DNA of 64,000 nucleotides from Carboxylicivirga linearis (lineage in GTDB: Bacteria > Bacteroidota > Bacteroidia > Bacteroidales > Marinilabiliaceae). The position numbers and the translations under genes are program-made. Every line of letters begins with the position of its first letter. Position 1 is the stretch's first letter. Of this stretch, positions 43,270-48,003 are shown piece after piece. The notes beneath the pieces were generated by a model, which worked only from the letters and a program-made list of their open reading frames with translations, searched no databases and was not told where the DNA came from. The DNA lies in assembly GCF_018271995.1 (NCBI RefSeq), contig NZ_JAGUCO010000006.1:1-64000 (forward strand), given 5' to 3'.

Positions 43270-45258
43270 ATGAAACCAAATAAGCTCATTGCCGAAACCA
43301 GTCCTTATCTTCTTCAACACGCTCATAATCCGGTCAAATGGTTTCCCTGGGGTGATGAAGCCTTTAAGAAAGCTCAAAATGAGGATAAACTAATACTGGT
43401 TTCAGTTGGATACTCGGCATGCCATTGGTGCCATGTTATGGAACATGAATCCTTTGAAGATGAAAGCGTGGCTGATATCATGAACCAACATTTTGTTTGT
43501 ATTAAGGTAGACAGGGAAGAACGCCCTGATGTTGATCAGGTGTATATGGAAGCTGTACAAATGATTAGCGGACAAGGAGGCTGGCCTTTAAACTGTTTTG
43601 CCCTACCTAATGGACAACCGGTTTGGGGTGGAACATATTTCTCAAAAGAGCAATGGATACAAGTGTTAACAACCCTAAGTAACTTATACCAAAACGAAAG
43701 AGATAAAATTATAGATCAGGCCAAACACCTTACAGAAGGAATTCGCCAGCAGGATTTTCCAGAATTATCAATACTGCCGCAGTCGACCGATGAAGCAGAA
43801 ATCATTTCAAATCTTAAAACCCGGTTTGATAATATAAACGGTGGATTGGGGGCTGCTCCAAAATTTCCTATGCCAATATCTCTCGAATTAATATTACAAT
43901 TGGGATATATAAAAAACAACAAAGAATTGCTTGATTTTGCATTTCTAACATTGGATAAAATGGCCTCAGGAGGAATTTACGATCAGGTTGGAGGCGGCTT
44001 TGCCCGATACTCAGTTGATGAGCATTGGTTTGCTCCTCACTTCGAGAAGATGTTGTATGATAATGCCCAATTAATATCGCTGTATAGTAATGCCTATAAA
44101 ATTAGTAGCAATCCTGATTACAAACGGATTATTAATGAAACGTTTGAATTTATTCAACGCGAATTAACTTCTGTTGATGGAGCTTTTTACTCTGCTTTGG
44201 ATGCCGATAGCGAAGGAAAAGAAGGTAAGTTTTACACCTGGAGTTTTAATGAATTAAAAGAGATAATTGGTGATGACAAATACTTTTTCAGTTACTTTTC
44301 AATAAATGAAAATGGCAATTGGGAAGATGGAGTAAATATTCTGCATGCAGTTACTCCTCGAAACATTTATTCTGAAAATCAATCCCTTGTACCACGAGAG
44401 TTTGAAAGCAATATTCAGCAAATGCTACGAATGCTTTTAATTGAAAGGAATAAACGTATTCGCCCAAGCCTGGATGATAAAATCCTTACTTCGTGGAATG
44501 CCCTGACCATCATCTCATTTTGTGATGCCTATCAAGCTTTGTCCGATCAAAAATTCTTAACTGCGGCCCAAAAAGCTTTTAACTATCTACGGTCAAAAGT
44601 AGTGCAAAAGGATGGTACAATTCATCGGTCATCAAAAAATGGAGTCAGTAAAATTGAAGGCTTCCTGGATGATTATGCCTTTTACATTCAGGCTTTAATT
44701 AAGCTTTATGAAGTCACCTTTAACGAAGAATATATACTTGATGCATTGAATACAACTCAATTTGTGATGGATCATTTTTACGATGAAGCCATTGGAATCT
44801 TTTATTATACTTCATCTAAAAGTGAAAAACTGATTGCCCGCAAAACAGATATTCAGGATAATGTAATACCATCCTCAGTAAGTACAATGACTATGAATCT
44901 GATTCAACTTTCGCAAATAACTCACCTACCCGATTACGAAACCATTGCAGATATGTTAATTACCAAGATGCATGATCAGATAGAAAAAAATCCGTCTTAT
45001 TATGCGCAATGGGCTTTACTATCATCACTTCGGCAGGCAAGAAATGAAGTGGTTATATGCGGTACAAATGCTGAGATGTTTCGAAAAGAGTTACAGACGG
45101 AATTAAGGCCCGGCACTATTTATGCCGGTTCATCAAATTCTAAAACTCAACTGAATATTTTAAAAGATAGATACCAATCGGATAAAACACTTATTTATCA
45201 ATGCAAAAACAAAAGCTGCGATCTACCCATTGAAGATCCCGAAGATTTAGTTATTTAA
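43270..45258 (+). CDS. YyaL/DUF255 thioredoxin-domain protein
   Basis: 662 residues from the ATG at 43270 ([20 protein letters not shown]). The N-terminal 160 residues are a thioredoxin-like DUF255 domain with [19 protein letters not shown] (CHWC in place of CxxC with Trp), followed by a long (alpha/alpha)6-barrel region ([38 protein letters not shown]). This is the conserved SSP411/YyaL family present from bacteria to man; the activity is not settled. No signal peptide. Its 3' end overlaps the convergent DUF2007 gene by 12 bp. Confidence 0.93.
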
Positions 45259-45474
45259 GCTCATGTATTTCATTAATTCCTGAGCTTCCTCCATATCCTT
45301 CTGAAAAATCATAACATTGGCTTCAGGTACAATATGTGGAGCTATGGTACTGGTATAACCATTTAACACACTGGCTTCAATATTATGGCTTTCCAACAAT
45401 TCCTTAATTTGAATAGCATCCATTGGGTTACCCGAAAAGGCAATTACCATTTTTTCGTTGTTTACATCACTCAT
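45247..45474 (-). CDS. DUF2007 domain protein
   Basis: 75 residues: [32 protein letters not shown], then [20 protein letters not shown]. This fits the small DUF2007 (putative signal-transducing, PII-like ferredoxin fold) family. Cytoplasmic, function unknown. It overlaps the convergent gene's stop region. Confidence 0.85.
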
Positions 45475-45576: not shown

Positions 45577-45633
45577 AAACTTAAAATTACGTTACTAAAC
45601 TTATTTTTAAGTTGACAAACTTAAATTTAAGTT
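45577..45633 (+). promoter_or_regulatory. Three 20-bp-phased inverted repeats (probable BlaI-type operators)
   Basis: Three 17-bp sites begin at 45577, 45597 and 45617, each AAACTTA-N3/4-T(T)A-(A/C)GTT and each separated by 3 bp. The middle and last are near-perfect palindromes (AACTTA...TAAGTT). The 20-bp period places them on nearly the same face of the helix, about two turns apart. The last two overlap the predicted promoter, as expected for autorepression by the dimeric winged-helix repressor coded directly downstream. Confidence 0.7.
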
Positions 45634-45642
45634 GTAAGTTTA
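45611..45642 (+). promoter_or_regulatory. Candidate promoter of the blaI-like/M56 operon
   Basis: GTTG at 45611-45614, 20 bases, then TAAGTTTA at 45635-45642. The -7 element ends 29 bp before the ATG at 45672. The -33 element lies inside the second inverted repeat and the spacer contains the third, so repressor binding would block polymerase. Confidence 0.45.
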
Positions 45643-45671: not shown

Positions 45672-46046
45672 ATGATAACTTTAACAAAAGCAGAAGAGAA
45701 TATAATGCAAATATTGTGGAAGCTGGAAAAAGGCTTTGTAAAAGATATCCAGAGCCAGTTTCCCGATCCCAAACCTCCTTACAACAGTGTTTCAACAATT
45801 GTGCGAGTGCTGGTAAAAAAAGAAATTGTAGGGTACACCAAGTACGGTGGTACTTATGAGTATTATCCATTAATTTCAAAAGAAGATTACCGAAGTGGTC
45901 AGATGGGACGTTTGGTTAACAAATATTTCAATAACTCTTTCAAACAAGTTGTCAATTTCTTTTCCGAAAATAAAAACCTCAAAATAGAAGAAGTAAATGA
46001 AGTAATAAAAATGCTTGAAGAACTGAAAAAAGAAAAAAATGACTGA
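45672..46046 (+). CDS. BlaI/MecI/CopY family repressor
   Basis: 124 residues: a winged helix (LTKAEENIMQILWKLEKGFV, PYNSVSTIVRVLVKKEIVGY, GTYEYYPLISKEDYR) and a C-terminal dimerisation helix. BlaI-type repressors bind palindromic operators and are cleaved when the partner M56 protease is activated. It overlaps the M56 gene by 8 bp. The cleavage site in other BlaI proteins lies in the C-terminal helical region; I cannot identify it here. The inducing signal is unlikely to be a beta-lactam because the partner has no penicillin-binding sensor. Confidence 0.92.
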   Translation: MITLTKAEENIMQILWKLEKGFVKDIQSQFPDPKPPYNSVSTIVRVLVKKEIVGYTKYGGTYEYYPLISKEDYRSGQMGRLVNKYFNNSFKQVVNFFSENKNLKIEEVNEVIKMLEELKKEKND

Positions 46047-48003
46047 TTTTCTGATATACCTGTTTGAATCGGGATTGTGCTTAAGCCTGTTTTACCTTGG
46101 CTACATTGTGTTTTTTCGAAAAGAAACCTATTTCACATTCAACCGATTTTACCTGCTGGGATCAATGATACTGGCACTTACAGTACCTCTTATTTCAATA
46201 CCCGTTGAAATTGGTAATCAGGGATATTTACATGAAACAGCCAATGGTGTAAGAAATATTAAAGATTACTACGAACACCTTATTCTTTTAACTGATCCCG
46301 GAACACTTGCTGATCCGTTAGCTGTTGCTAAAGATCCACAAGAGGCATTGCCTCAACAGTTGGTAAGCAAATCAGTCATCTCTATTTCAAGCATTCTGAT
46401 AACAATATACATACTGGGAGTGCTGTTCTTTACCTTTCGGTTATTCTACTTATTGTTAGGCATTAAAAAGATGCTGGCAAGAGCAAAAATTGAAAAAAGT
46501 AAAAAGATGAACCTGGTACTCATTCAGGATGAAGTACCTTCTTTCTCATTTCTGAAATGGATTTTTGTTAATCCAGGCATACTTAAACCCGAAGAATTGG
46601 AACAAGTACTAACGCATGAAAAAGTTCATGTGGAACATAAACATTCAGTGGATTTGCTATTGGCACACATCATAACCATTTTCCAATGGTTTAATCCACT
46701 AACATGGCGCATACAGAAATCAATTAAAACCTGTCACGAGTACATTGCCGACCGAAAGGTGGTTGAGCACGGACATGCTTTATTTGATTATCAGTCTCTA
46801 TTACTGAGTCAGTTAATCAGCATTCGCTCAGTAGAGCTGGTCAATAATTTTAATTTATTATCAATTAAAAAACGAATAGCCATGATGAATAAACATAAAT
46901 CGGGCAAATGGGCTCAATTGAAAGCCTTTGCCATCGTACCTATACTATTAGCTGCTTTCTTCTTTTTTACAGATATGACAAGCAGAAATGAAGATTTTAG
47001 TTTCGAACAGCCTGTTGCAGAAAAATCCAATCAACTAATTGGTTCGTGGATATCAAATGAAACAGGAATTAATGTTATTCAATTTGTTGAAATTAAAAAT
47101 GATGAACTTCTTACATTCAAAACTACCGGTGATAATAACATTGTAATAAATGATTATTCATGGGATGCAAGAAAAAGACAATTGATACTTAGTAATGAAA
47201 AAATTAAAGAGAAAGTTAATTATAGTCTTGAGAACAATAAGTTAATCATCGACTGGGGTAAAAATAATAAAGTAACTTATATCCGAAATGATGAAAAGAA
47301 TTCTTACACCTTAATGGATGATGGATTCCAAAAGCTGAATCTACCTTACGCAACACAGTTAAATCCGTATAAAAAAGAAATGGTGTTATGCACTATTACT
47401 TTAAGCGGAGATAAACTGAATGTAGATGGTAAATCGGTTCGTTTTTCTGAGTTGGAAAACTTTATGGTAAAGTTAAGATCTACAGCAGATCAAAGTAAGG
47501 TGGCCAAAATGGTAGTGCTAATGAATATCGACAAAGATGCCAAAATGGAATATGTCGATCAGATTAAAACAGCACTCAGAAAAGCCAACACTTTAAAGTT
47601 GGGTTATCTGGCCAAATTAAAAGGTCATAGCGGAACTGATTACATGGCCTTATTTAATTTATTACCACCGATGGATGCAATATTAATTGAAGATGTTGAT
47701 CTCGACAAAAAAGGAATTGCTCTGTTTGAGATTGAGAAAGATTATAAAGACTTTGGTTCCAAACTAAGTAAGCATGCAAGAGACAATAAAAAATATGTAA
47801 TGCTATATAGTTACAGTAACAATACCAGTTATGAAGATTATATCAAAACCATTGATCTGGTTTATAAAACTATCAATTCATTGCGTAAAGAAAAGGCTTT
47901 CTTCCAGGGCGATAATTATGCGGAATTAAGCTACGAAGAACAAAAGGCTTACCGAGAAATGTATCCTATTTCTTTAACGATGAGAAATATTGATGAAGAT
48001 TAG
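46039..48003 (+). CDS. BlaR1-like M56 metalloprotease fused to tandem ExbD-like domains
   Basis: 654 residues. Three N-terminal helices are followed by a cytoplasmic protease domain with the zinc motif HEKVH (193-197) and a downstream glutamate in HEYIADRK (Glu234), then a fourth helix near 296-312. The extracytoplasmic part has three pieces. Residues 330-420 are a lipocalin-like beta segment (LIGSWISNETGINVIQFVEI). Residues 447-527 look like an ExbD/TolR periplasmic domain (ITLSGDKLNVDGKSVRFSEL, MVVLMNIDKDAKMEYVDQI). Residues 545-645 form a second copy ending as Bacteroidota ExbD proteins do (DLVYKTINSLRKE, ELSYEEQKAYREMYPISL). There is no beta-lactamase-like sensor. The signal is therefore probably envelope or TonB-system state, which is inference. 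Confidence 0.88.
   Translation: MTDFLIYLFESGLCLSLFYLGYIVFFRKETYFTFNRFYLLGSMILALTVPLISIPVEIGNQGYLHETANGVRNIKDYYEHLILLTDPGTLADPLAVAKDPQEALPQQLVSKSVISISSILITIYILGVLFFTFRLFYLLLGIKKMLARAKIEKSKKMNLVLIQDEVPSFSFLKWIFVNPGILKPEELEQVLTHEKVHVEHKHSVDLLLAHIITIFQWFNPLTWRIQKSIKTCHEYIADRKVVEHGHALFDYQSLLLSQLISIRSVELVNNFNLLSIKKRIAMMNKHKSGKWAQLKAFAIVPILLAAFFFFTDMTSRNEDFSFEQPVAEKSNQLIGSWISNETGINVIQFVEIKNDELLTFKTTGDNNIVINDYSWDARKRQLILSNEKIKEKVNYSLENNKLIIDWGKNNKVTYIRNDEKNSYTLMDDGFQKLNLPYATQLNPYKKEMVLCTITLSGDKLNVDGKSVRFSELENFMVKLRSTADQSKVAKMVVLMNIDKDAKMEYVDQIKTALRKANTLKLGYLAKLKGHSGTDYMALFNLLPPMDAILIEDVDLDKKGIALFEIEKDYKDFGSKLSKHARDNKKYVMLYSYSNNTSYEDYIKTIDLVYKTINSLRKEKAFFQGDNYAELSYEEQKAYREMYPISLTMRNIDED

Follow-up and report, generated by a model that had tools for sequence, protein, structure and literature searches.

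A BlaR1-like M56 protease gene of Carboxylicivirga linearis carrying an ExbD2-ExbD1 pair: architecture, operator-like array and a possible reading of the Ton motor

Introduction

How bacteria sense the function of their Ton motor, or the supply of its subunits, is to our knowledge an open question. A gene of Carboxylicivirga linearis joins a BlaR1-like M56 protease to two ExbD-type periplasmic domains. The gene lies in the first 64,000 nucleotides of contig NZ_JAGUCO010000006.1 (assembly GCF_018271995.1), the whole stretch analysed here and called the window. In the scan of the window for open reading frames (ORFs) it is a single ORF of 654 codons on the + strand (46039-48003), which encodes an M56 protein of 654 amino acids and whose start overlaps a blaI-type gene (45672-46046) by 8 bp. 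A first-pass annotation, made from the letters alone, had proposed that the protein is a sensor protease with two tandem ExbD-like domains, and that it belongs to a repressor circuit reading the TonB-ExbBD machinery or the cell wall and not a drug. The architecture of the protein and the operator array of its operon are well supported; what the sensor reads is inferred.

A BlaR1-Like Protease with Two Unlike ExbD Units

The two C-terminal units were compared with the ExbD proteins of the same genome by profiles built from 16 members each, A2 for unit 1 (residues 430-536) and A3 for unit 2 (residues 537-654). In the window's genome, A2 found the ExbD2 of an exbB-x-exbD1-exbD2 operon (E = 9.4e-11) and one weaker ExbD (3.6e-5), and A3 found that operon's ExbD1 (1.1e-9), the product of a second ExbD1 gene (7.8e-8) and a chance-level match (0.84). 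This operon is located on another contig, and its first gene encodes an ExbB (Pfam E = 3.5e-29). When the profiles were compared with profiles of 10 ExbD1 and 6 ExbD2 proteins, A2 matched ExbD2 with Prob 98.9 (E = 1.5e-16) and ExbD1 with Prob 0.18, whereas A3 matched ExbD1 with Prob 98.5 (E = 2.6e-14) and ExbD2 with Prob 0.03. Because each unit matches its own partner and the swaps fail, the fusion carries the ectodomain of an ExbD2 (unit 1) followed by that of an ExbD1 (unit 2); in the motor operon exbD1 comes first. A repeat of a single duplicated ExbD, which was also considered, is ruled out by the failed swaps, and the two ExbD-like domains of the first-pass annotation therefore stand as two domains but not as a repeat of one kind.

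The Pfam family ExbD (PF02472) matches the whole protein at residues 431-521 (E = 3e-6; 27.7 bits, the cut-off being 25.4), unit 1 excised scores 22.6 bits (E = 1.2e-4), under the cut-off, and the family is present at E ≤ 0.001 in 23 of 29 aligned members. Contig ends truncate two of these 29 proteins (L090 and L091) at the C-terminus, and L014 is without its N-terminus. By sequence, A2 reaches six solved ExbD sequences, the best at E = 2.2e-5 and four of the six at 0.018-0.039. The pair modelled alone (33 sequences, four of them from a second, non-M56 scaffold) has a mean predicted local distance difference test (pLDDT) of 93.4 and a predicted template modelling score (pTM) of 0.88. Ranks 1-5 of its Foldseek list are ExbD chains (8pek, 8vgc, 8p9r twice and 8vgd; prob 1.00, E 0.008-0.034, template modelling score normalised by target 0.66-0.81) and TolR stands at rank 12, all E-values of the list lying above 0.001. 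The predicted fold of the C-terminus is consequently that of ExbD, as had been suspected, and the tail KTINSLRKE...EEQKAYREMYPIS at residues 610-645, earlier read as typical of Bacteroidota ExbD, aligns with the ExbD1 tail.

Fold and sequence profile are shared with ExbD and TolR of the Ton and Tol motors, and so is an LP-containing linker, which precedes both units in most members (NLP-like before unit 1, LLPP before unit 2; exceptions exist). In the closed state of ExbD, a linker strand (NIBS) is reported to cover the site that takes the TonB D-box (PMC12905483, PMC10771500), and the linkers of the fusion may act in the same manner. Two differences set the fusion apart from a motor ExbD: it carries two unlike ExbDs on one chain, and a helix of the protease replaces the acidic motor helix. 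In 0 of 29 members does this helix (residues 290-311, before the ExbD units) hold an acidic residue, so the proton-relay residue of ExbD is missing; the fusion may work like an ExbD ectodomain, and it is not a motor ExbD.

The protease part has likely membrane helices at residues 2-26, 32-51, 116-148 and 290-314, and zinc motifs HEKVH at 193-197 and HEYIAD at 233-238 (E234xxxD238). Pfam M56 matches the protein at E = 4.4e-12 and all 29 aligned members at E ≤ 0.001, and H193, E194, H197, E234 and D238 are invariant in all of them. The spacing from H to E is 41 residues, as between H201 and E242 of BlaR1 (PMC9834060). The full chain, modelled with AlphaFold2 from 29 sequences (mean pLDDT 75.5, pTM 0.43), matches Staphylococcus aureus BlaR1 8exq in Foldseek at E = 5.6e-6 with prob 1.00, the latter value being shared by 8exp, and the zinc motif and BlaR1-like protease noticed at first reading are confirmed. 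An NNF is found near the position of the BlaR1 self-cleavage loop in 27 of 29 members, an equivalence by position only. As a single sequence the fusion protein (P0001) has no match to solved structures at E ≤ 1, and PADLOC, consulted for a link to phage defence, has no match for the M56 protease or for BlaI.

The protein thus shares with BlaR1-BlaI and MecR1-MecI the M56 fold, HEXXH and EXXXD at a 41-residue spacing, an adjacent repressor gene and a Phe at the candidate cut site of the repressor. It differs from BlaR1 and MecR1 in having a lipocalin-like segment, ExbD2 and ExbD1 instead of the penicillin-binding sensor. Since no penicillin-binding Pfam family is found in the fusion protein at E ≤ 1, it is not classed as a beta-lactam sensor.

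The BlaI Neighbour and Its Operator-Like Array

The blaI gene stands immediately 5' of the fusion in 26 of 29 members. The exceptions are G022, with an 803-aa ORF between the two, G360, which on its short contig has another ORF upstream of the fusion and no blaI, and G401, whose contig begins 237 bp before the fusion gene. In G005, blaI precedes the N-terminal piece of the fusion, on another contig. In S. aureus, BlaI is reported to be cut directly by BlaR1 (PMC9834060), and a candidate site is visible in the repressors studied here, apparently equivalent by position to N101|F102 of S. aureus; the Phe is present in 32/32 BlaI sequences compared by eye, seven of which come from other M56 loci.

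Upstream of the operon, palindromes of the pattern AACTTA-N4-TAAGTT form a phased array (Table 1). Operators were counted in 27 operons, G360 and G401 being excluded as blaI or its upstream region is off the contig; three operons led by exbD1 were scanned on the exbD1 side and on the blaI side and counted once, and second matches 7 bp from a site (five rows), which overlap the array, were left uncounted. At least two palindromes with at most two mismatches were found in 26 of the 27, spaced by 20 bp in 25 and by 21 bp in one; three stand in phase in 23, and one operon has a single site. In L086, L087 and L090 a full-length exbD1 stands first in the operon; the array precedes exbD1, and the 330 bp before blaI are free of sites (≤2 mismatches), so that a real motor subunit gene appears to be under BlaI control in these three genomes. 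Across the window's genome the pattern occurs with at most one mismatch at 32 places, of which three are clustered, all at this operon; the remaining exact site (C96:34612) is inside a 557-aa ORF. The TTG and TAAGTTTA boxes around palindrome 3 resemble the Bacteroidota promoter pattern TTG / TAnnTTTG.

Table 1. Coordinates in the window of the fusion gene, its parts and the elements upstream
Feature	Position	Strand	Basis
Whole M56-lipocalin-like-ExbD2-ExbD1 gene	46039..48003	+	ORF, Pfam, alignment of members
M56 protease part, residues 1-316	46039..46986	+	Pfam, alignment, model, Foldseek
Lipocalin-like eight-strand segment, residues about 330-417	47026..47289	+	Model, Foldseek, alignment
Unit 1, ExbD2-type periplasmic domain and linker motif KLNLPYA (432-438), residues 430-536	47326..47646	+	Pfam, profiles, Foldseek
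Unit 2, ExbD1-type periplasmic domain, LLPP linker (541-544) to long tail, residues 537-654	47647..48000	+	Profiles, model
blaI-type repressor gene, 124 aa, candidate cleavage site VVN95|F96	45672..46046	+	Pfam Penicillinase_R E = 1.2e-29
Operator-like palindrome 1, AACTTAAAATTACGTT, 1 mismatch to AACTTA-N4-TAAGTT	45578..45593	.	Pattern scan
Operator-like palindrome 2, exact, 20 bp after palindrome 1	45598..45613	.	Pattern scan
Operator-like palindrome 3, exact, 20 bp after palindrome 2, between promoter-like boxes	45618..45633	.	Pattern scan
Promoter-like TTG (45612) and TAAGTTTA (45635-45642)	45612..45642	+	Sequence

Occurrence of the Fusion

The large surveys scored at most seven candidates per genome, and the counts of fusions are accordingly lower bounds. 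Fusions occur in at least 16 of 60 genomes in a search of relatives and in at least 12 of 14 in the genus (the window's own included in both), the named relatives being mostly Carboxylicivirga, Plebeiobacterium and Marinilabiliaceae bacteria. A sample of the order has at least 14 fusion-bearing genomes among 393 (match E ≤ 3e-32), and the 13 fusions besides the window's own all have HExxH and Pfam M56. In a phylum sample of 395 genomes, only the window's own matched at E ≤ 1e-14. In the class sample, 82 of 395 genomes match a wider profile, A5, mostly with frames of single-ExbD length, and two frames of M56 length were found, the window's own and one from another order (G958). The G958 protein scores above the cut-offs of both Pfam families, M56 and ExbD; a blaI accompanies it, and its operon, the 28th, has two exact palindromes 20 bp apart. 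A survey of M56-ExbD fusions, one of the checks proposed at the outset, has thus yielded 29 aligned proteins and that of G958.

What the Sensor May Read

The features above can be read as one circuit. BlaI would occupy the three phased operators and repress its own operon. The M56 protein, by analogy with BlaR1, would span the membrane with its zinc site inside and its ExbD domains in the periplasm, where the pair would mimic the periplasmic portion of the ExbB-ExbD1-ExbD2 motor of the cell without the motor helix, presumably as a pseudo-heterodimer like that of the real motor. Because it imitates the motor ectodomains and lacks the motor helix, the pair probably binds the partners of the real ExbDs. 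Candidate ligands are a TonB-like D-box, free ExbD1 or ExbD2, and peptidoglycan; the ExbD dimer is described as capturing one TonB D-box (PMC10907165), and ExbD as switching between closed and open states and contacting peptidoglycan (PMC10771500). Ligand binding could make the pair change between the closed and open states reported for ExbD and so move the membrane helices, upon which the protease would cut BlaI before the conserved Phe and the operon would be released. In the window's genome the visible output would be the operon itself; since the released operon begins with exbD1 in three genomes, the loop could there serve as supply control for a motor subunit.

We give about even credence to this BlaI-M56 proteolytic circuit, in which a covalent ExbD2:ExbD1 mimic would be the ear. 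It would monitor the Ton motor or the motor's partners and adjust its own level, together with that of ExbD1 in some genomes. A sharper form of this reading is more tentative, namely that the ExbD2:ExbD1 copy is a gauge of the Ton motor, engaged by an excess or a shortage of a partner (TonB or free ExbD), with BlaI then cut and the operon, in some genomes with exbD1, released. The signal we infer to be TonB-ExbBD, the cell wall or another. The first-pass claim that the sensor reads TonB-ExbBD or the cell wall and not a drug is likewise conjectural.

Gene content offers a second line of evidence. Counting a second exbD1 at E ≤ 1e-15, with the two matches of G045, which are halves of one gene, counted once, at least two exbD1-type genes were found in 13 of 16 fusion-bearing and in 0 of 44 fusion-less genomes (Fisher p = 1e-10, a value that ignores shared ancestry). 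The two fusion-less genomes of the genus, G008 and G012, are both without the second exbD1, and among 11 further fusion-bearing genomes five have at least two exbD1 (E ≤ 1e-8).

Several observations weigh against the circuit as proposed, or against its link to the motor. The co-occurrence of fusion and second exbD1 is not phylogenetically independent; G032, G034 and G049 bear the fusion with a single exbD1 match at E ≤ 1e-15, and six of the 11 further fusion-bearing genomes have one exbD1 match or none. The second exbD1 of the window's genome has no palindrome in the 260 bp upstream (≤3 mismatches), and no second clustered array was found in this genome with at most one mismatch, a search that would miss sites with more changes; control of a motor subunit is therefore visible only in three other genomes and not in the window's. 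Single sites are no help: a backwards control pattern with one mismatch is commoner in the window's genome than the palindrome (101 vs 32), exact sites occur in 12 of 14 genus genomes, and in most genomes of the genus the control is no rarer than they are, and the whole window has 14 sites with at most two mismatches where 8.4 are expected, a count reached by 7 of 100 shuffles. As to the protein, no exbB stands beside the fusion gene (no Pfam MotA_ExbB match in five neighbouring genes and one small ORF), unit 2 excised has no Pfam match at E ≤ 1, and A3 by sequence finds no solved ExbD, its only match being an unrelated one at E = 0.75. The PF02472 check suggested for the C-terminus hence held for the whole protein, fell short for unit 1 alone and failed for unit 2 alone; the profile E-values of A2 and A3, the whole-protein score and the fold of the pair model nevertheless establish the two ExbD/TolR-like units, and the outcome named beforehand as refuting them, no ExbD match and no ExbD-like fold, did not occur.

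Because the backwards control is commoner, isolated palindromes carry no weight, and the argument rests on the array of phased sites that recurs from genome to genome. For the window's genome a wider regulon was also considered; it finds no support in these counts, the only cluster found being at this operon. Direct control of the second exbD1 of the window's genome by the same operator, likewise considered, finds none either, there being no upstream site, and the scattered 3-mismatch sites upstream of the second exbD1 in some rows of relatives were given no weight. The repressor circuit first proposed is supported by the adjacent blaI and by the conserved operator-like array, which in three genomes stands before an operon whose first gene is exbD1; for the window's genome the pattern used gave no second clustered array, and the second exbD1 is without a site.

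As an observation on the second exbD1 itself (L004 1492-2067, L128-L140), no exbB is seen beside it in L004, and in many relatives its upstream region holds, by eye, a palindrome-like TCATTAATTA ... TAATTAATGA together with GCAGGGTCA, which is not the BlaI array. Because the gene has a conserved upstream stretch of its own and no BlaI array, any link between fusion and second exbD1 in the genus is functional at best and not one of common regulation.

The reading by motor or partners is ranked above its rivals. The first of these, which we consider unlikely, is that the ExbD pair senses the cell wall: it would bind the glycan chains of peptidoglycan, a change of the wall would trigger the protease, and the TonB machinery would be uninvolved. 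The periplasmic domains of ExbD and TolR are reported to contact peptidoglycan (PMC10771500, PMC12905483), and relatives of BlaR1 are known for the sensing of cell-wall drugs (PMC9834060). However, the pair copies both partners of one specific motor and not one generic wall-binding domain, and the exbD1 within the operon in three genomes points to the motor. Less likely still, the fusion would itself be the effector: as an ExbD look-alike under autoregulation it would pair with ExbD or TonB and thereby poison or buffer the Ton motor, the protease setting nothing except its own level. This would suit the finding that the sole clustered array found in the window's genome (≤1 mismatch) is at its own promoter, and a helix 290-311 free of acidic residues in all 29 members could let the protein occupy partners without driving protons; yet a fully conserved protease site and an adjacent blaI exceed the needs of a decoy, and exbD1 is again found in the operon in three genomes.

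A third alternative, improbable in our view, would make the lipocalin-like segment the real sensor, for a small ligand, with the ExbD units merely holding dimers together. Lipocalin-like proteins (5cyb and 4qrl) are among the Foldseek matches of the full-length model (E about 0.03-0.04 at prob 1.00), in agreement with the lipocalin-like segment noticed in the extracytoplasmic region; the Foldseek output is without ranges, and we assigned these matches to the eight predicted strands at residues 335-416. In seven of 29 members, however, no more than a linker of 16-21 aa is left of this segment, and in four others 81-83 aa; its conservation (0.37) is the lowest of the five parts compared, the ExbD units scoring 0.45 and 0.52 and the protease 0.76; the constant ear of the sensor is the ExbD pair and not the lipocalin-like part. 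An assembly or gene-calling artefact that fused neighbouring genes can be dismissed, as the same architecture recurs in G958 and in the 29 proteins of the alignment, which belong to different genomes and families.

Relation to Known Systems and Meaning

The type of circuit is known, and the ExbD-pair sensor is new to us. In the openly available literature (subscription papers lying outside the search), no description was found of a BlaR1-type or M56 sensor with ExbD domains. BlaR1 and ExbD co-occur in one paper found there, a Chryseobacterium genome paper, and the words M56, BlaR and MecR are absent from PMC12204202. A further likeness is to the M56-TonB C-terminal fusions of Bacteroidota, for example at L056 7492-8736 (Pfam M56 and TonB_C), which also have M56, a blaI beside it and a periplasmic domain of an envelope machinery; the domain is the TonB C-terminus there and the ExbD pair here. 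That blaI-M56-TonB_C pair (L056 7492-9114) lies convergent after the fusion.

If the motor-partner reading is true, an energy machine of the envelope would feed back on gene expression, and the cell may monitor its own nutrient-uptake motor rather than a drug. The question becomes directly testable through a sensor that is built of both ectodomains of the motor and comes with candidates for operator, repressor and cut site. The findings further suggest that envelope machines can be read through sensors built on BlaR1-type proteases, and that ExbD1 and ExbD2 of Bacteroidota, unlike as they are, work as a pair.

Neighbouring Genes and Other ExbD Scaffolds

In the window, a gene of 75 aa (DUF2007, E = 8.2e-8; 45247-45474, - strand) diverges from blaI at about 100 bp from the array. 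An 803-aa FtsX/MacB permease gene stands between blaI and the fusion at L056 1413-6702. In G360 the place of blaI directly before the fusion is taken by a redoxin/thioredoxin-like gene (L091 178-1548; Redoxin E = 1.8e-19). Just downstream of the fusion and on the same strand, L081 (4893-5989) and L085 (5267-6369) have a sigma-factor gene and a gene of 196-198 aa, the sigma factor being identified by Sigma70_r2 (E = 1.9e-15) in L081 and by similarity of its ends in L085.

A second membrane scaffold of 455-497 aa, with several membrane stretches by eye, apparently carries ExbD2 followed by ExbD1, and the ExbD2-ExbD1 pair looks like a reusable module. It was found at L092 4592-5959, L093 4343-5836, L094 4439-5875, L095 4222-5652, L096 3966-5378 and L189 2985-4421. 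None of the six scanned has a Pfam M56 match; Pfam ExbD is above the cut-off in L092, L095 and L189, weak in L093, and missing from L094 and L096. In L096 the gene starts 1 bp after that of a histidine kinase of 1146 aa. A protein of 298 aa at L190 2509-3405, with a lipoprotein-like start and a C-terminal ExbD (Pfam E = 8e-7, residues 181-257), is possibly a third scaffold.

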